From an archaeon (GTDB lineage: Archaea; Thermoproteota; Nitrososphaeria; Nitrososphaerales; Gagatemarchaeaceae): a DNA stretch of 64,000 nt. Position 1 is the first letter of the stretch, and every line of letters begins with the position of its first letter. The notes beneath the pieces were generated by a model. It searched no databases. It was not told the origin of the DNA and was given only the letters and a program-made list of their open reading frames with translations. Positions 25,430-34,553 of the stretch are shown piece after piece. Location: contig JAKASK010000005.1 of NCBI GenBank assembly GCA_021819105.1, forward strand, positions 1 to 64,000, given 5' to 3'. The position numbers and the translations under genes are program-made.

Positions 25430-26844
25430 GCGGCGGGGCACCTGGGGCCGAGTTCGTCCTCCTGCTCGCCGGGGTCACTCTGGCGACCTTCGCGGTCAGG
25501 GCCAGCTTCATCTCGGGGGGGAGGTGGGTGAAGGGGGACTCCCTCTACCACCTGGCCATAGCCCGCGAGACCAGGCGCCTGGGGCACCTCCCTGCAACCA
25601 TCGACCGTTTCATCCTCCCTGAGACCTACGCCTATCCGCCGCTGCACCATCTCATCATATCGAGGATCCCGGGACGCTGGGACCTGCAGACGCAGAAGGT
25701 CGGCTTCGCCTACGACGCCCTGACCACCTTCGCCGTGGGGTATGCAGGGTACGCCCTCGGAGGCTGGGAGGCGGGCCTGGTCGCTCCCCTCGTCTACGTC
25801 CTTTCCCCCTTCCCCCTCACCAGCTGCCTGGCCACCTCCCCACAGCCACTGGGGGTCTTCTTCGTGGCCGCCTTCGCCCTGTCGGCCGCATCCCTGCCGT
25901 CAGCTCCAGGCTCTGCCTTCTTGCCCCTCTTCGTCCTCTCGGGGGCCGCAGCCGCGGGGGCGATGCTTTCGCACAGGTCGACATCCCAGGCACTGATCCC
26001 GCTCGCAGCGGCCGAGTCCCTTGCCTACGGGCCCCTGGACTTCGTTGGGCCGCTCCTGCTCGGCTCCCTGATCGCCCTACTGCTGTTCAGGGAGAGGTTT
26101 TTGGCGCAGGTCAGGGAACACGTCAAGTTCGTCGTCCTGCAGGGAGGGCACCAGCTGAACGTCCTCTCTGGGCTCCTGAAGCAGAGGAGGTTCGCCCGGG
26201 CGCTGGAGGTGCACTTCATGCCAAGGGTGGTCGCCGCGAACTTCCCGCTCGTCGTGCTGGTCCCGCTGCTGCTCCTCTTCGTCCCCGGGGCGCCGCTCTA
26301 CCTGCTGCTCTGGGCCGCCGGGGTCATCGCGATGTACCTCCTCTGGCTCCCCGGCCGTGGATACCGCCACCTCGCCGCCGCCGTCCCGGCTCTCAGCCTC
26401 CTCTCCGCCTGGGCCATCGGGGCGTCCCCCCTGGCCGCCGTCCCACTGATCGGCGTCCCCCTCGCCCTTTCCGCCGCGAAGTACCTTCGGACAGTACGAA
26501 GAGGGAAGATATTCCTGACCTCCCAGTCGCTTTCGGCATGCGCCGCGCTGGACAGACTGGCATCCGACGGCGACATGGTCCTCGTGATACCCTTCAGCGA
26601 GTCATACACCGCACTGTACTTCTCAAGGTGCAAGATCCTCCAGGGGAGCGGCGGGGACCCGGAGGGGCTGATGTTCAACAGGCGCCTCGACCAGCTGATC
26701 TCCCAGGAGGGAGGGGTCGAGGCCCTGGTGCGACAGTACGGGCCCAGGTTCGTCCTCCTGAGCAGCGCGGCGGAGGCGAAGGTGGCAGGTACGGTCCTCT
26801 TCGAGAACGAGGGGTACCGGATCATCGGCGTCGGCTCGCACTAG
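25426..26844 (+). CDS. Multi-helix membrane protein, GT-C glycosyltransferase-like
   Basis: The 472-residue product has about 10-11 hydrophobic segments followed by a soluble C-terminal domain of roughly 110 residues. The first loop contains KGDSLYHLAIARE, resembling the acidic catalytic loop of GT-C glycosyltransferases such as PMT, ArnT and oligosaccharyltransferases. It overlaps the flippase stop by four bases, so it is probably involved in assembling or transferring the same lipid-linked glycan. The family call rests on topology, the D-x2-YH loop and context, not on a full domain match. A convergent gene overlaps its end by four bases. Confidence 0.6.
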   Translation: MSGGAPGAEFVLLLAGVTLATFAVRASFISGGRWVKGDSLYHLAIARETRRLGHLPATIDRFILPETYAYPPLHHLIISRIPGRWDLQTQKVGFAYDALTTFAVGYAGYALGGWEAGLVAPLVYVLSPFPLTSCLATSPQPLGVFFVAAFALSAASLPSAPGSAFLPLFVLSGAAAAGAMLSHRSTSQALIPLAAAESLAYGPLDFVGPLLLGSLIALLLFRERFLAQVREHVKFVVLQGGHQLNVLSGLLKQRRFARALEVHFMPRVVAANFPLVVLVPLLLLFVPGAPLYLLLWAAGVIAMYLLWLPGRGYRHLAAAVPALSLLSAWAIGASPLAAVPLIGVPLALSAAKYLRTVRRGKIFLTSQSLSACAALDRLASDGDMVLVIPFSESYTALYFSRCKILQGSGGDPEGLMFNRRLDQLISQEGGVEALVRQYGPRFVLLSSAAEAKVAGTVLFENEGYRIIGVGSH

Positions 26845-27839
26845 CCCCGGGAGCTGTAGACCCTGCGGCGGAGGTCGCCGGGGTCGAGGGTCTCGGTGAT
26901 GACCCCCTGGTCCAGAAGGCTCTTCAACGAGGCCTGCACCGTCCTCCTGTTCAGGCCTGTGAGGCGGACGAGGCGGCTCTGGTCTATGGGCCCGTGGGCA
27001 GAGACCACGAAGTAGAGGAACTTGGCCCCCGGACCCCCGCTCACCTTCTTCGAACCGGGGAGGACGCCGAAGGTGTCGCCGCGCAGCCCCCTCCGCTGGG
27101 TCTCGAGTGCCCCGATGCTTCTGAGGTCCACGTTCCCAAGGTTGACCTGGGGCCCGATGTGCATGATGAGCTCCGTCTGCTGGGTCTCCATCGGGGCTTC
27201 GAACAGCAGCTTCTGCGGGCGGCTCGTCTCCTCCAGCCTGGTCACCCAGTCCCACTTGACCTTCCCTTCGCCGTCGTAGATGCCCACGCTCCGCCCGGTC
27301 TCCCTCCCTTCGATTATGACAAGGCTCGGGTCGAGGTCGAGCGACTGTTCCACCCTCGACGCCGTCTCTTCCAGGCTGAGCTGGTTCTTGGGGTTCTTCC
27401 TGCCGACTTCCACGCAGAGCATGAATCCGCGGGAGTGCGCGAAGTCGGCGACCGCCTTCTTCACCCTCCAGGGGATGTCGATCACCCCTTCGCTCAGCTC
27501 GACCGTGTCGAAGCCGGCCCCGGCGAGCCGGCCTAGGGCTGCCGTCTCCTTCCCCTTGGAGACGCAAATCTCGAGGAGCGTCCCTCCATTGGAAACGCTG
27601 ATTCCGTGGTGCCTGTACGTCCTGACGCGCGCGACCAGCGCTTTCTCTTCGACGAGGAAGGGGAGCCCCCATCCTATCTTCGCAATGTCCGCGTACGGGC
27701 CGACCAGCCCGAGCAGATCGTCAAGGGGTTGGGCCAGCCTGTCGAGGACCATCGTCTTCCCTGACTCGCCCGGGCGGGGCGCGCCCAGTACCTCGCTGAG
27801 GAACGTCTTTGCCAAGCCGGGTGCCTCTGGCCGTGGCAT
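26841..27839 (-). CDS. Phosphosulfolactate synthase (ComA) domain fused to winged-helix domain
   Basis: The 332-residue protein has two parts. Residues about 25-250 match ComA, which joins sulfite to phosphoenolpyruvate in coenzyme M synthesis: GKTMVLDRL, the strand IAKIGWG, GGTLLE (86-91), VEVGRK (143-148) and IIEGRETG (175-182) followed by GIYDGEG. Residues about 270-331 form a winged helix-turn-helix (LVRLTGLNRRTVQASLKSLLDQGVI, then a YSSR wing). ComA proteins usually end at about 250-270 residues. It is divergent from a YeiH-type exporter with 103 bases between them. I infer either an enzyme with a DNA-binding tail or a sulfite/PEP-sensing regulator derived from ComA. A TATA-like box lies near 27850-27858; the TTG at 27815 is an alternative start. 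Confidence 0.82.
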   Translation of the reverse strand: MPRPEAPGLAKTFLSEVLGAPRPGESGKTMVLDRLAQPLDDLLGLVGPYADIAKIGWGLPFLVEEKALVARVRTYRHHGISVSNGGTLLEICVSKGKETAALGRLAGAGFDTVELSEGVIDIPWRVKKAVADFAHSRGFMLCVEVGRKNPKNQLSLEETASRVEQSLDLDPSLVIIEGRETGRSVGIYDGEGKVKWDWVTRLEETSRPQKLLFEAPMETQQTELIMHIGPQVNLGNVDLRSIGALETQRRGLRGDTFGVLPGSKKVSGGPGAKFLYFVVSAHGPIDQSRLVRLTGLNRRTVQASLKSLLDQGVITETLDPGDLRRRVYSSRG

Positions 27840-27844
27840 GGTTC

Positions 27845-27914
27845 ATGCGTAATATATGCATACACCTCGCCAATCAATACGCAGGACAGGCCTGACTTCC
27901 GCTTTGTTATGCGC
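27845..27914. promoter_or_regulatory. Palindrome and related half-sites between comA-HTH and yeiH
   Basis: The divergent spacer contains ATGCGTA-ATA-TATGCAT (27845-27861), an imperfect palindrome whose centre is also the TATA-like box of the reverse gene. Related hexamers recur as TACGCA (27878-27883) and TATGCGC (27908-27914). Such a spread of half-sites between a DNA-binding protein gene and its divergent neighbour is the usual layout of an autoregulated operator. The sites are seen directly; the regulatory role is inferred. Confidence 0.4.
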
Positions 27915-27942
27915 ACTCCTCCACCATTAAATCCGCCCCTCG

Positions 27943-29319
27943 ATGCGGGGGCGGCCGAGGGGTGCATTCACACTGCAGGAAGGGGAGCCAAGGAAGAAGC
28001 GCATAGACTGGTCTTCCCTCTACAGGAAGGAGGACTGGTGGGCCGTCTGGCTCGGGCTCCTCATCCTCGTCCTCTCTGTCCCGTCCTACCTTGGGGTCTA
28101 TGTCATGGGCTGGGACCCGGCTGCGGTTTCCTGGACCAGCATCGCCTCCGCCCTGTCAGCCAGGTCGCTCAACCCCTGGGCTGGCCTGGCGCTCAGCTTC
28201 TTCTTCATCGCCCTCCTATTGGTGCCGGCGACCCGGGCGAACGGAGTTAGGACCAGGGACTGGCTGAAGGGGTTCGCAATCATCTTCCTCCTGTCCTGGG
28301 CGGTCTGGATCGTGGCCAACTACTCCCCGGTCGTGAAGGCGATGGGGAGCCCGGAGGTGGGGTTCGTGTTCGCCCTGGTCGCCGGAATCGCCATAGCCAA
28401 CTTGACCGAGGTCCCCAGGTGGTTATTGGACTCGGCGCGGGTCGAGCTGTTCATCAAGGTGGCGATTGTGCTGCTCGGGGCGAAGATACTCCTGACGACC
28501 TTCGCCACCAGCGCCGGCGGGATCCTCCTCGCTGTCTTCCTCTCGTTTCCTGCCGTGTGGCTGTTCGCGTTCTTCACTTCGAGGCGTTCGGGCCTTGACA
28601 GGGACCTCTCGGCGACCCTCTCCTCTGGGGTAGGGGTCTGCGGCATAGCCGCTTCGATAGCGACCGCCGCCGCCATCGACGCTCCTCCGATCTATGCCAG
28701 CCTGATGTCGTCGGTCATCGTGGTCTTCTCCGCCGTGGAGATAATCGCCATGCCGTTCCTCGCGGCGGCGGTCTTCCCTGGTCACTACCAGGCGGCCGGG
28801 GTCTGGATGGGTCTGAGCGTGAAGACCGACGGGGCTGCGTCCGCCAGCGGCTCGGTGGTGGACGGGCTGCTGAACGCCAACGGCTCGTCCCTGGCTGCGG
28901 CCGTCCAGACAAAGGTCATGATTGACATCTGGATAGGGCTCATAGCCTTCGTGCTGGCGACGGTCTGGGCCTACAAGTTCGGAAGGAAGACCGGGGAGGG
29001 GAGGTCCCCCAGGGTGGTGTGGTACAGGTTCCCGAAGTTCGTGCTCGGCTACTTCGCCGCCAGCGCCCTCATCACCGCGATAGCGCTCACCTACCCGACG
29101 GCGGCTGCGGGGGCCAAAGCCGTCGCTCCGATCATATCCAGCGGCACCGACCCGCTCAGGACGATCTTCTTCGCCTTCACCTTCCTCTCCATCGGGCTGA
29201 ACACGAAGTTCTCGAAGTTCAGGGAGATCGGGATCGGCAAGCCCGCCCTCATCTACGGGGTTTCGCTGGCCTTCGCGATCCTCTGGGGAGGGGTCGTGGC
29301 CTACCTTATCTTCGGCTAG
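27943..29319 (+). CDS. YeiH-family (UPF0324) putative sulfate/sulfite-type exporter
   Basis: The 458-residue membrane protein has about 11-12 hydrophobic segments and the YeiH/UPF0324 pattern: a long hydrophilic N-terminus, IKVAIVLLGAKILL, LSSGVGVCGIAASIATAAAI (the conserved GxGxCG region) and FLSIGLNTKFSKFREIG near the end. Relatives in sulfonate-degrading bacteria are proposed to export sulfite or sulfate. Here it diverges from the ComA-winged helix gene and converges with UDP-sulfoquinovose synthase, whose reactions both involve sulfite, which supports sulfite as cargo. It begins at the ATG at 27943; GTTATGCG at about 27906-27913 is a possible TATA element. Confidence 0.82.
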   Translation: MRGRPRGAFTLQEGEPRKKRIDWSSLYRKEDWWAVWLGLLILVLSVPSYLGVYVMGWDPAAVSWTSIASALSARSLNPWAGLALSFFFIALLLVPATRANGVRTRDWLKGFAIIFLLSWAVWIVANYSPVVKAMGSPEVGFVFALVAGIAIANLTEVPRWLLDSARVELFIKVAIVLLGAKILLTTFATSAGGILLAVFLSFPAVWLFAFFTSRRSGLDRDLSATLSSGVGVCGIAASIATAAAIDAPPIYASLMSSVIVVFSAVEIIAMPFLAAAVFPGHYQAAGVWMGLSVKTDGAASASGSVVDGLLNANGSSLAAAVQTKVMIDIWIGLIAFVLATVWAYKFGRKTGEGRSPRVVWYRFPKFVLGYFAASALITAIALTYPTAAAGAKAVAPIISSGTDPLRTIFFAFTFLSIGLNTKFSKFREIGIGKPALIYGVSLAFAILWGGVVAYLIFG

Positions 29320-29343: not shown

Positions 29344-30534
29344 TCAGGCCGGGCCCAGCGGCCCGTGCCCCTTCTTCCCTTCCTTCCAGGTGACCGTGGG
29401 GGCGATGTGCTCCTTCTTCTCCTCGATCCTGCTCTTGTATCTGACGCAGTCGCCCAGCATGATCTCCAGCTCCTCCTCCAACGACCTGGTCGGCTTGAAC
29501 CCCAGGTCCTTGAGGTGCTGGTTGTCGACGGAGTAGAAGTGCTCCTGCATTTCGATTCTGGGGTCTTCTATTCCTTTGACCTCGGTCTTCAGCCCGAGTT
29601 TCTCCCTGGCGACCTTCGCCACCTTCTGGGCCAGCTCCCCTATCCCGTAGACCTCGTCAAGCTGGTTGAACACCCTGTACTCGCCCTCCCTGGGGGGGTG
29701 CTCGATGGCCAGGGTCATGCACTGGATCGAGTCAACGAGGGCGATGAACCCGCGCTTCATCTGGCCCGTCCCGTAGGGGCTCATGGGGTACCCTATGGCT
29801 GCCTGGGCGCAGAACCTGTTGACCGCTGTCCCGAAGGCCTCGTCGAAGTCGAACCTGGTCAGCAGCCTTTCGTCAGACATCTCCGGCGTGCGCGTGCCAT
29901 AGACGACCCCCTGCATGATGTCGGTCGACCTGAGGCCCCAGATCTTGCAGGCGAATGCGACGTTCCCCGTGTCATGGACCTTGCTCCAGTGGTACCAGCT
30001 CCCCGCCTGGCGTGGGAACGGGAGGGTGTCCTTCCTCCCCCTGTACTCTACGTCGAAGAAACCCTCGGGGATGGCGACGTTGGGGGTCCCGTACTCCCCC
30101 ATGGTCCCGAGCTTCACAAGCTGTGCGCCTCTCGCATACTCCCTCATCTCGAACAGGAGGTTCAGGGTGCCTATGACGTTGTTCTGCTGCGTGTAGACCG
30201 CGTGCTCCCTGTCCATCATGCTGTAGGGGGCGGACGGCTGCTCCGCGAGGTGCACTATCGCATCCGGCTTGGACTCCTTCAGGACGTCGCGGAGGTAGCC
30301 GTAGTCGAGGGTGCTCCCCCGTCCGAACCTCATCTTCAGTCCGTGGACCTCCTTGGCTGCCTTCACCCTGTTCTCCATGTTCTGGATCGGGGTCATGCTC
30401 TGCGACCCAATCTCGGCCACGACTGACCTCCGGCTGAAGTTGTCGAATCCGGCTACCTCGTGGCCTCGCTTGGCGAGGTGGAGGGCGAGGGACCACCCCA
30501 GGTACCCATCCATACCGCAGATTAGGACTCTCAT
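29344..30534 (-). CDS. agl3: UDP-sulfoquinovose synthase (SQD1/Agl3 type)
   Basis: The 396-residue SDR enzyme converts UDP-glucose and sulfite to UDP-sulfoquinovose. It matches plant SQD1 and Sulfolobus Agl3 almost throughout: GMDGYLGW (residues 7-14, NAD binding), EQPSAPYSMMDR, YTQQNNVIGTLN, TMGEYGTP with the catalytic Thr, YHWSKVHD with the Tyr-Lys pair, QGVVYG, and FNQLDE. In Sulfolobus this activity supplies a sulfonated sugar for N-glycans of S-layer and other surface proteins. In bacteria and plants it serves sulfolipid. The surrounding glycosyltransferases and flippase favour the glycan role. The gene ends 24 bases from the convergent YeiH-type exporter. Confidence 0.93.
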   Translation of the reverse strand: MRVLICGMDGYLGWSLALHLAKRGHEVAGFDNFSRRSVVAEIGSQSMTPIQNMENRVKAAKEVHGLKMRFGRGSTLDYGYLRDVLKESKPDAIVHLAEQPSAPYSMMDREHAVYTQQNNVIGTLNLLFEMREYARGAQLVKLGTMGEYGTPNVAIPEGFFDVEYRGRKDTLPFPRQAGSWYHWSKVHDTGNVAFACKIWGLRSTDIMQGVVYGTRTPEMSDERLLTRFDFDEAFGTAVNRFCAQAAIGYPMSPYGTGQMKRGFIALVDSIQCMTLAIEHPPREGEYRVFNQLDEVYGIGELAQKVAKVAREKLGLKTEVKGIEDPRIEMQEHFYSVDNQHLKDLGFKPTRSLEEELEIMLGDCVRYKSRIEEKKEHIAPTVTWKEGKKGHGPLGPA

Positions 30535-30807
30535 CTCAGGACCCTCCGAATTTGGCCGCTTCCCGCTCTAAGCTAGAAAAGCGTTTGGGGCAAGAAGCCT
30601 GAGCAGTGCCCGCCTCGCTTGGGTCCGATTCCCTCGCCTGGCCGGGGTGGGTCCCAATGGAGGCCCCGCTACGTTGTCTTGCGCCTCAGAGCGGCCATGT
30701 CGCGCCCCCGCTCGCCATCGGCGCGGTTCTCAATGCCGGCCTCCACTCGCGGGAGGGAGAGTCCCAGGTTCCGGGGAGCCGTCTCCGGCAAGCCTCCCTC
30801 ATGCTCC

Positions 30808-31557
30808 TCAGAACGCGAGCCCCCTGAACCAGTACCAGCCCCATCGGATGGAATTCGCAGTAATCGACAGATTGCCCGTTGCGAAGCCGGCTTCCACCCC
30901 CGACAGGACGCAGGCTCCGGAGTTCCTCAAGGCAGTCTTCAGATTGTGATACTGGGGCACCCCGGCGAGCCCCTTCACGCCCTTGCGAATGTGGCTCCAG
31001 AACTCCTGCGTGTCGCCGTAGGCCAGCCTATGTTCGCATTCGATGGCGACCCGCAGCCTCCGGTAACCCTTGTCTGTGACATGGGCGCTCATGAGCAGAT
31101 CTTCCGAACCAAAACCCAGGTACTCCCCGGCCGGGTAATGCCAGTCGCTCAAAGCATCCCGTTTCACGATCGCGCAGCAGTTGAAGCTCCTTTCATTCGG
31201 GCCCAAGTCCCAGACGGTCCTCTTTGCGACATCCTTTGCGAACCGCCAGTGACTCCACTGTGCATACCAGGGCGGGGTCGAAGGGACCGCAAGGCTCTCA
31301 AGCCAGCCAATCTTCGCGTCGTTCCAAAACGCCATCAAGGAGTCATACCAGCCCTGAGGCAGATACACGTCATCGTCGAGCCACACAAACCTGTCCGTGC
31401 TCGACCTTTGGATTGCCCTTTCTCTCGCGGGGCCCAAGGGGTACGATTTCTCAACTATTATTTCATGAACCGGGACCGCTTCTTTGATCATCTCCTCGAA
31501 CTCTGGGGAGATGTCGTTCTTTGTGACTACCAGGACGTCAACCGATGTGTCCGACAT
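30808..31557 (-). CDS. Glycosyltransferase family 2 protein
   Basis: The 249-residue protein shows a GT-A fold: VDVLVVTKND, LGPARERAIQRSS, then the metal-binding WLDDDVYLP near residue 78 and a GSEDLLMSAHV motif with the likely catalytic acidic pair. No membrane helix is evident. It follows the sugar epimerase gene on the same strand by 22 bases and probably uses the sugar that enzyme makes. By eye this gene and the epimerase have clearly lower GC than the genes on either side, a hint of later acquisition. Confidence 0.82.
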   Translation of the reverse strand: MSDTSVDVLVVTKNDISPEFEEMIKEAVPVHEIIVEKSYPLGPARERAIQRSSTDRFVWLDDDVYLPQGWYDSLMAFWNDAKIGWLESLAVPSTPPWYAQWSHWRFAKDVAKRTVWDLGPNERSFNCCAIVKRDALSDWHYPAGEYLGFGSEDLLMSAHVTDKGYRRLRVAIECEHRLAYGDTQEFWSHIRKGVKGLAGVPQYHNLKTALRNSGACVLSGVEAGFATGNLSITANSIRWGWYWFRGLAF

Positions 31558-31579
31558 TTCGCCACTTATCTTGAGCCGG

Positions 31580-32563
31580 TCACCCGGCGGGCCGGCCGAG
31601 TTTCTGTCTCCAAAAGGCGATGGTCTTCTTCAGACCTGTCTCCAGGGGGACATTCGCAGACCATCCCAGCGTTTCTCTTGCCTTGTCCGAGTTCAAGCTG
31701 TGGTCTGTTATGTCGAGGGGGCGCTTCGGTATGCTGTGCTTTGCAAGTTCGCCTTCAAAGTGAGTCAGCCGTGCGGCCAGCTTGATCACTTCATTCAACG
31801 TGAGCGGCTTGCCCGTCGAGAAGTTGAAGATCTCGCCAATAGACTTCTCCCTCTGAGAAAGAACCGAGAGGTAAGCGCCAACGTGGTCGTCGATGTACAT
31901 GAACTCCCTTATGGCTTCGTCGTCTCCCATCATGACCTCGCCCTTCGGATTGGCGATCATCTGGGTGACGATCTTCTCGATAAAGAAGTGCGTGTCATTG
32001 GTCCGGCCATAGGTGTTGGTGCAGCGGATTATCGTCGCCGGGAAGTCGTATGCGAGGTGCATGTACTCCAGGTATTTCGATCCTGCGTATTTCGAAATCG
32101 AATATGGCGAGTTCGGGATGCACCGGCTAGTCTCCTTTGCAGGCCTCTCGGGCGTCGCCCCGTATTCCTCCGTCGTCCCCGCATAAACGAAGTGCTTGAA
32201 CGACGGGATCAGCTCCCGGCAGCTTTCAGCCAGGTTGACGGTCCCCATGAGATTGTTCTCGATCACCTCCTGTGGATGTTCGTAGCTGTAACTTACAGGA
32301 CTTATCGCGGCCATGTGGACCACGACGTCTGGCTGGACGCGCTTCAGCACCGTCCTCACCGAATTCGCGTCTCTCAGGTCGACGAAGTGGGTCTCGACGG
32401 TTCTCCCGAGATTGGCGTATCTGCCGGTCACATAGCGTTCTACGGGATGCACTTCATACTGGTCCTGAGCCACAAGCTGCCTGACCAGCTGGGACCCTAC
32501 AAACCCAAGCCCTCCAGTTATCAGAAGTTTCGGCTTTCTCTCAGACACATCCGGTTCCAACAA
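31580..32563 (-). CDS. NAD-dependent nucleotide-sugar epimerase/dehydratase
   Basis: The 327-residue extended SDR has the NAD motif TGGLGFVGS (about residues 16-24), HMAAISPVSYSYEHP, the catalytic TTEEYG and YSISKYAG (Tyr-x3-Lys), and CTNTYGR. It is closest in pattern to GDP-mannose 4,6-dehydratase/UDP-glucose 4-epimerase-like enzymes; the substrate cannot be settled. The start is a TTG pair at 32563. It leads a two-gene unit with the downstream glycosyltransferase. Base composition is lower in GC than its neighbours. Confidence 0.85.
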   Translation of the reverse strand: MLEPDVSERKPKLLITGGLGFVGSQLVRQLVAQDQYEVHPVERYVTGRYANLGRTVETHFVDLRDANSVRTVLKRVQPDVVVHMAAISPVSYSYEHPQEVIENNLMGTVNLAESCRELIPSFKHFVYAGTTEEYGATPERPAKETSRCIPNSPYSISKYAGSKYLEYMHLAYDFPATIIRCTNTYGRTNDTHFFIEKIVTQMIANPKGEVMMGDDEAIREFMYIDDHVGAYLSVLSQREKSIGEIFNFSTGKPLTLNEVIKLAARLTHFEGELAKHSIPKRPLDITDHSLNSDKARETLGWSANVPLETGLKKTIAFWRQKLGRPAG

Positions 32564-32708
32564 AGCGTCCTAAGATGCCAGCAGATAAACGATTTTCCTC
32601 GTAACATGGCATGTGATGGCAGAAGTGGAACTGGGGTTTCCCGACTTGCCCCCGGTCTCGCCCTTCCTCAACTTTTAGTACTTCCGCGGGGCAGCATTCG
32701 TGGTTCTA

Positions 32709-34553
32709 ATGTGCGGCATAGGTGGATGCATAGGAGAACAGGCCACCACTGAGCTCGTAAGGAGAATGTCCGCCCTTACGAAGCACCGGGGACCCGACGA
32801 CTACGGCGAGTACGTCGACAGGGGTGCTGCGCTCTTCTCGAACCGGCTTAGCATCATAGACGTGGAAGGGGGGCACCAGCCTATCTTCAACGAAGACGGG
32901 ACCCTCGCCATCGTTTTCAACGGAGAGATATACAACTTCGCAGGCATCAGGGAGGAGCTTGAGAAGAAGGGGCACCGCTTCAGCACCCGGTCTGACACCG
33001 AGGTGATACTGCACGGGTTCGAGGAGTACGGCCCGGCGGTGTTCGGCATGCTCGACGGCATGTTCGCCGTCGCAATCTGGGACGTCAAGACGAAGAGGCT
33101 CACCCTCGCGCGAGACCGGGTCGGGATAAAGCCGCTCTTCTACGCCAAGACTCCACGGGGGGACCTCGTCTTTTGCAGCGAGGTCAAGGGGGTGCTCGCC
33201 CACCCCGACGTCAAGGCCGGGGTGAACACCGACGGGCTCTATTACCTGATGTCGCTCTACTACATCCCCTTCGAGGCGACCCTCTTCTCGGGGGTGTGGA
33301 AGGTCCCGCCGGGCTCGTACTACGACTCTTCGACCGGGGCCGTGTCCACCTACTGGTCCCCTCCCAGGATAGAACCCGGGCCGCCTCCCGACCCCGCCGT
33401 GATAAGGGACGCCCTCGAGCAGTCCGTCGAGCGCCAGCTCGTCTCCGACGTCGAGGTGAGCACATTCCTTTCCGGCGGGCTGGACTCTTCGACAGTCACC
33501 GCCTTCGCTTCAAAGCACTACCCTCAGAAGCTGAAGACCTTCTGCCTGGGATTCGGCCACGACGACGACGAGCTGGCTGACGCGAAGATGGTGGCAGAGC
33601 ACTTCGGGACGGACCACCACGAGTTGACCATCTCCGACAGGATGGAGCTCGACCTCTACCCTAAGATGATCTGGCACACAGAGGAGCCGAAGCTCAACAC
33701 CTACGGCTGGTTCGTCAACCAGTTCGCCAGCAGGTACGTGAAGGTCTGCCTCAGCGGGCTCGGCGGGGACGAGCTCTTCTTCGGGTACCCGACGTCGGCT
33801 AGGTTCACCTCCTTCAGGAGGGCGCAGGGGCTGATGAAGTACCGCGGCGCTTCCCTCCTCTCAGCCTTCTCGTCCGGAAAGAGGAAGGCTGTGCTCTCGA
33901 ATGTAAAGGACAGGACCTCCACCTACCTGACCCTCGTCTCGCCGGTGTACAGGTCCATCGACGACGCTGTCTTCTCCGCCCCGGTCACTGGCGCGAGGGG
34001 GAAGTTGACCGAAAGGATGCGGGGGCAGTTCTTCGGAGACCCGGGGGCCGAATTCGTACAGCAGGCAGTGAGGGCGGAGTTCGGGACGAAGCTGACCGAC
34101 GACTTCCTGCTGGTGGAGGACGCCATGTCCATGGCCCACTCCCTTGAGGCCAGGGTCCCCCTCCTGGACAACCAGCTCCTTGACCTCATGCTCCCGGTCC
34201 CCTACCGGTTCAACTACGAAAACGACGTCGGGAAGGTGCTCCTCAGGAAGGCCATGACCGGCATCCTCCCCCCCGAGTGCTTCGAGAAGCCGAAGCACGG
34301 CTTCAGCCTGAACATCGTCAAGTGGTGGTCGGGGGAGTTCGGGGAGGAGATCAGGAACGCGCTTTCCGGGTCGGAGGCGGTCAAGCGGTACTTCAACGCC
34401 GAAGCCCTGAGGAAGCTCATACCTGCCGCCAAGGATTCCTACAGCACGGTGTCGTTCCTCTGGCACGTCTACGGCTTCCACATCTGGCACGGGCTGTTCC
34501 TGGAGGGGGGGAAGGACAAACTCAGGGCCCCGGCGCCTGGACTCGCGAAGTGA
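32709..34553 (+). CDS. asnB: Glutamine-dependent asparagine synthetase (AsnB) family amidotransferase
   Basis: The 614-residue enzyme has an N-terminal class II glutaminase domain starting MCGIGG, where Cys2 becomes the nucleophile after Met removal, which fixes the start at the ATG at 32709. RLSIID, NGEIYN and SDTEV follow. The synthetase domain has the PPi loop FLSGGLDSS near residue 257. AsnB makes asparagine from aspartate, but homologues within glycan clusters often amidate sugar uronic acids, as WbpS does in O-antigen synthesis. The adjacent nucleotide-sugar dehydrogenase, which makes uronic acids, fits that second role. A TATA-like box (32671-32680) is placed for a leaderless transcript. 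Confidence 0.9.
   Translation: MCGIGGCIGEQATTELVRRMSALTKHRGPDDYGEYVDRGAALFSNRLSIIDVEGGHQPIFNEDGTLAIVFNGEIYNFAGIREELEKKGHRFSTRSDTEVILHGFEEYGPAVFGMLDGMFAVAIWDVKTKRLTLARDRVGIKPLFYAKTPRGDLVFCSEVKGVLAHPDVKAGVNTDGLYYLMSLYYIPFEATLFSGVWKVPPGSYYDSSTGAVSTYWSPPRIEPGPPPDPAVIRDALEQSVERQLVSDVEVSTFLSGGLDSSTVTAFASKHYPQKLKTFCLGFGHDDDELADAKMVAEHFGTDHHELTISDRMELDLYPKMIWHTEEPKLNTYGWFVNQFASRYVKVCLSGLGGDELFFGYPTSARFTSFRRAQGLMKYRGASLLSAFSSGKRKAVLSNVKDRTSTYLTLVSPVYRSIDDAVFSAPVTGARGKLTERMRGQFFGDPGAEFVQQAVRAEFGTKLTDDFLLVEDAMSMAHSLEARVPLLDNQLLDLMLPVPYRFNYENDVGKVLLRKAMTGILPPECFEKPKHGFSLNIVKWWSGEFGEEIRNALSGSEAVKRYFNAEALRKLIPAAKDSYSTVSFLWHVYGFHIWHGLFLEGGKDKLRAPAPGLAK

Follow-up and report, generated by a model that had tools for sequence, protein, structure and literature searches.

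ComA (PF02679; 1qwg in M. jannaschii, 1u83 in B. subtilis) normally joins sulfite to phosphoenolpyruvate (PEP), and BirA is an enzyme-derived one-component regulator in which an enzyme core is joined to a helix-turn-helix. We know of no ComA example among such enzyme-derived regulators and, to our knowledge, no regulator of assimilatory sulfur metabolism has been described for ammonia-oxidising archaea or Thermoplasmata. The 64,000 nucleotide stretch analysed here (GenBank assembly GCA_021819105.1, contig JAKASK010000005.1, positions 1–64,000; hereafter the window), from an archaeon of the family Gagatemarchaeaceae within the Nitrososphaerales, encodes at 26841–27839 on the minus strand a protein of 332 amino acids in which a ComA domain is followed in frame by a winged helix, and which we propose to be a sulfite-responsive regulator. 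The closest described arrangement is found in Enterobacteria, where the sulfite-binding regulator YeiE of Salmonella controls the adjacent gene yeiH, which gives sulfite resistance (PMC12880088).

As in YeiE-YeiH, the fusion gene of the window has a YeiH-family gene for a neighbour and the signal is probably sulfite, but sensing would fall to a ComA barrel that carries a winged helix at its C-terminus, in place of a LysR protein (no LysR helix-turn-helix or substrate domain was matched in Pfam or NCBIfam), and YeiH is the partner in the window genome only. As in BirA, an enzyme core is coupled to a helix-turn-helix, so that the substrate state could reach the DNA, but the enzyme is a different one, the family archaeal and the predicted regulon one of sulfur metabolism. 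The winged helix is similar to those of the archaeal MarR, TrmB and MsvR regulators, but no match to their sensor domains was found in the fusion, where the ComA barrel takes their place. With ComA itself the fusion shares the whole barrel, the fold and every position compared with M. jannaschii ComA (MjComA), and it differs in the added winged helix, in a score below the equivalog cut-off, in that no ComB was found in 23 Nitrososphaeria-side genomes and in adjoining genes for sulfur uptake or assimilation. Enzyme-based regulators are already known; what is new is the proposed ComA sensor domain, the lineage and the predicted sulfur regulon. The open-access literature searched gave no description of a ComA-type regulator, in agreement with the first-pass annotation of the window, and the family is apparently undescribed there. 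Judging from the comparisons below, it is probable that the fusion is a one-component regulator which senses through its ComA pocket and controls sulfur supply.

Domains, fold and distribution of the fusion

The ComA TIM-barrel domain comprises residues 21–255 (27075–27779, minus strand), which are matched by PF02679 over profile positions 5–243 of 243 (205.7 bits, E 9.7e-61), and the motifs GGTLLE, VEVGRK and EGRETG, from which the domain had first been recognised, are all present. The C-terminal winged helix comprises residues 270–330 (26850–27032, minus strand), and residues 278–325 match MarR_2 with 28.1 bits against a cut-off of 27 (E 2.3e-6), the top score for this part, while the matches to TrmB and MsvR are weak. 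An AlphaFold2 model built with 73 fusion homologues (mean pLDDT 90.4) showed a barrel and a separate winged helix with the elements H270–282, H287–294, H298–311, E314–319 and E322–330, where helix 298–311, with the motif LNRRTVQ, is the recognition helix and 314–330 form the wing strands. The closest structure in the PDB is M. jannaschii ComA, 1qwg (TMt 0.93). The protein scores below the cut-off of the NCBIfam archaeal ComA equivalog TIGR03849 (220.2 bits, cut-off 280). Invariant among the 73 fusions are P270, F274, Q287, T300, Q302 and R324 of the winged helix. The order of domains given in the first-pass annotation is thereby confirmed, and the conserved two-domain family, the invariant winged-helix residues and the confident model all argue for a regulator.

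Whole-genome searches revealed the full-length fusion in Nitrososphaeraceae and several other families across the Nitrososphaerales, often with two copies per genome, in some Nitrosopumilaceae and in scattered cases elsewhere in the phylum. A scan of named genomes found it in many Thermoplasmata, including the complete genome CP009479 (locus L168) and E-plasma (L238). The hosts are archaea of soil and acid water. Since the in-frame fusion recurs in many genomes, it is neither confined to one genome nor an assembly artefact. In a quick tree 51 fusion rows split from stand-alone ComA-like proteins (SH-aLRT 89), which are distinct from the fusions also when found in the same genomes; the deeper root is uncertain due to long branches among the stand-alone proteins. 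The window protein and that of its nearest relative L071 (61–62% identity) nest in a clade otherwise of the Thermoplasmata side (support 99), a placement which suggests transfer between the two groups. Weak matches to the winged helix alone in other families were also considered as distant ComA fusions, but those that were read are NAD kinases.

Sulfur genes as partners of the fusion

Dereplication at 80% identity left 57 fusions, among them 47 with flanks of over 1.5 kb to each side, and a gene for Ssu, CysH, Sat, SQD1 or YeiH was found within 4.5 kb at 34 of these 47 loci, immediately divergent (within 400 bp) at 22. The surveyed genomes are related, and for this reason the counts are not independent trials. 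In Nitrososphaeria the fusion adjoins, and often diverges from, genes for a substrate-binding protein, an ATPase and a permease (SsuABC-like), of which the binding protein passes the SsuA family for aliphatic sulfonates (202.8 bits, cut-off 163.5), and in the 11 genomes searched 12 of 13 SsuA genes above cut-off adjoin a fusion. In Thermoplasmata the fusion diverges, at a distance of mostly about 40–140 bp, from cysH, behind which sat lies, and both products score above their NCBIfam cut-offs (CysH 252.8 against 154, Sat 402 against 387); in one relative (L077) sat with an apparent cysC replaces cysH-sat. In the window and its two nearest relatives (L071 and L124) the fusion lies near a gene for UDP-sulfoquinovose synthase. 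The partners differ by lineage, yet all handle sulfite or its precursors, and the switch between cysH-sat, ssu and YeiH is itself informative. The frequency and divergent layout of the sulfur genes, the identity of SsuA, CysH and Sat above cut-offs, the adjoining of nearly all SsuA genes to a fusion and the common relation of the varying partners to sulfite all support the proposed regulator.

In the proposed mechanism, of which DNA binding, ligand, direction of control and operator are predicted parts, the ComA barrel would act as the sensor, with sulfite, sulfite together with PEP, or the sulfonate that ComA produces as its ligand, while the winged helix would attach to the promoter DNA between the divergent genes, probably in an oligomer that has the barrel as its base. 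The regulator would then adjust genes that import, make, consume or expel sulfite: cysH-sat in Thermoplasmata, the SsuABC-type sulfonate importer in Nitrososphaeria and, in the window, the YeiH-like exporter and possibly the nearby UDP-sulfoquinovose synthase gene. The family would thereby be a named candidate for sulfur regulation whose targets can be predicted lineage by lineage, and a possible control of organosulfur uptake by soil archaea is suggested.

Several observations weigh against such a regulator. At 13 of the 47 flanked loci, roughly one in four, no recognised sulfur gene lies in the vicinity (for example L072, L082, L083, L097, L107 and L109), and YeiH is a candidate target in the window genome only. 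A similar winged helix is also found C-terminally on NAD kinases across the Thermoproteota, so the winged helix alone is no proof of regulation. The 6-mer TGCGCA, a palindrome found in the window at 27910–27915, is the most over-represented in the regions that precede the dereplicated fusions (present in 10 of 37–38, where 1.3 are expected from random windows and 1.9 from Markov shuffles), but its positions scatter from -103 to +11 and it is missing upstream of most fusions; as a candidate operator element it is therefore treated as a lead only.

The NAD kinases could also be taken to favour a plain enzyme of sulfonate metabolism in which the winged helix was added for structure or oligomerisation and binds no DNA, since in the kinases, too, a regulatory role is only putative, and co-location with sulfur genes is compatible with an enzyme as well. 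This is very unlikely, as the largest clade combines an altered pocket (see below) with a conserved winged helix, the divergent arrangement beside sulfur operons that vary from lineage to lineage is what regulators typically show, and the fusion has no common pathway gene downstream of it in the neighbourhoods surveyed.

The NAD kinase fusions were observed across the Thermoproteota, including ammonia-oxidising archaea where they lie next to pyrG, with the similar C-terminal winged helix seen at L126:6056-7054, L127:5629-6627 and L131:4373-5377 and further at L143, L147-L150, L156, L158 and L161. No description of this further enzyme–winged-helix fusion was found in a brief search of the open-access literature.

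The ComA pocket and the question of catalysis

Comparison with MjComA showed the pocket of the window protein to be identical at 22 of 22 conserved sequence positions compared. Nearly as complete a match was found for the nearest relatives of the window protein and for the fusion copies of f14 and of the main Thermoplasmata group. The Nitrososphaeraceae copies carry E133K (66 of 67) and R170N (67 of 67; MjComA numbering) with the other residues kept. As a proposed regulator, the family would be a clear example of a sensor derived from an enzyme, with successive stages (canonical pocket, altered pocket) open to comparison.

As the pocket of the window protein matches MjComA at all positions compared, catalysis may persist in the window branch, and the protein could be a trigger enzyme, a still active phosphosulfolactate synthase that uses its winged helix to signal turnover, or the state of its substrate, to DNA. 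Besides the fusion, the window genome has no ComA, and neither do 9 of the 10 Thermoplasmata-side genomes searched; a ComB homologue was found in 4 of 5 Thermoplasmata-side genomes. Both observations fit such an enzyme, but at the two loci read ComB lies near ribosomal protein genes and not in a coenzyme M cluster. ComB was moreover found in none of the 23 genomes searched on the Nitrososphaeria side; the majority of these genomes contain the fusion, and among them is the window genome (65% complete). The substitutions in Nitrososphaeraceae suggest that catalysis is not the conserved role. A trigger enzyme is for these reasons rather unlikely in the window. Coenzyme M synthesis is unlikely in the Nitrososphaeria-side genomes since no ComB was found there, and ordinary coenzyme M synthesis in Nitrososphaeria was rejected as an explanation on the same ground. 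The outcome for ComB speaks for the proposed regulator, and a sensor role fits all lineages.

As ComA binds PEP as well, the ligand of the regulator might instead of sulfite be PEP, as a carbon or energy signal, or the transported sulfonate itself, and the altered-pocket copies of Nitrososphaeraceae do adjoin sulfonate importers. This too is unlikely, since sulfite is what the partners common to all lineages produce, transport or consume, a set for which PEP alone would not account. Sulfite as the signal may tentatively be extended to a wider picture, which we regard as possible but somewhat doubtful: a widespread archaeal regulator family, evolved from an enzyme of coenzyme M biosynthesis, would sense sulfite through its former active site and govern, as a master switch, the sulfur supply of Thermoplasmata and of ammonia-oxidising soil archaea, while some of its members would have remained catalytic. 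Together with the similar winged helix of the NAD kinases, the family would then be part of a broader tendency of archaea to link metabolic enzymes to DNA.

The window locus and stand-alone ComA-like proteins

When analysing the window locus, the starts of the fusion gene at 27839 (minus strand) and of the YeiH-like gene at 27943 (plus strand) were found to enclose a shared divergent intergenic region of 103 bp (27840–27942), as first reported. The YeiH-like gene (27943–29319, plus strand) encodes a membrane protein of 458 amino acids, probably a sulfite exporter and a probable target of the fusion. With 95.7 bits it is above the PF03601 cut-off of 24.5, but its 55.2 bits against the NCBIfam YeiH family TIGR00698 fall far short of the cut-off of 232.6, and it is accordingly called YeiH-like here. 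Relatives with 43–46% identity lie close behind dsrB and dsrC in other Thermoproteota, which places the window protein in a sulfite-linked subfamily and adds to the case for the regulator, as does the control of adjacent yeiH by YeiE in Salmonella (PMC12880088). On both grounds the pairing with YeiH seems to be one lineage's own way of using the common sulfur signal, and the fusion probably controls sulfite export in the window. At L256, L257 and L259, in other Thermoproteota, YeiH-like genes follow the dissimilatory sulfite-reductase genes dsrB/dsrC, and sulfite transport is suggested for these loci too.

A regulator and target pairing with YeiH had been proposed from the divergent layout, of which the layout and the link to sulfite stand while YeiH as the usual target does not. 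No YeiH gene lies near any other ComA–winged-helix locus surveyed, so that homologues with the winged helix almost never sit beside YeiH; PF03601 was found in one other genome among 52 relatives searched, on a different contig, and was absent from all 14 fusion-carrying Thermoplasmata-side genomes searched. YeiH as a general partner is ruled out by this survey and these searches, and the wider idea of a regulator can be upheld, since what diverges from the fusion in other genomes is cysH-sat or a transporter for sulfonates.

UDP-sulfoquinovose synthase (SQD1) consumes sulfite, and the window gene of this SQD1/Agl3 type (29344–30534, minus strand) was identified by NF041015 (578.6 bits, cut-off 575), by similarity to SQD1 1qrr (E 9e-122) and by homologues at L071 and L124. 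It belongs to a cluster of surface-glycan type at 29344–34553, in which the fusion and YeiH-like genes lie and which also comprises genes for a glycosyltransferase 2, an NDP-sugar dehydratase/epimerase and an asparagine synthase. In the nearest relative (L071:10187-12472) the synthase, of 761 amino acids, is interrupted by an inserted segment that carries a LAGLIDADG domain and is probably an intein.

Stand-alone ComA-like proteins beside MmgE/PrpD genes or thiamine-diphosphate (ThDP) enzymes were considered as family members and set aside as a separate branch. At L111-L119 such a second protein lacks the winged helix, lies mostly beside MmgE/PrpD genes and does not keep a number of conserved ComA residues (positions K137 and R170). 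At L120 and L121 divergent ComA-like proteins are flanked by ThDP enzymes that are acetolactate-synthase-like and weakly sulfoacetaldehyde acetyltransferase-like, perhaps belonging to a sulfonate pathway.

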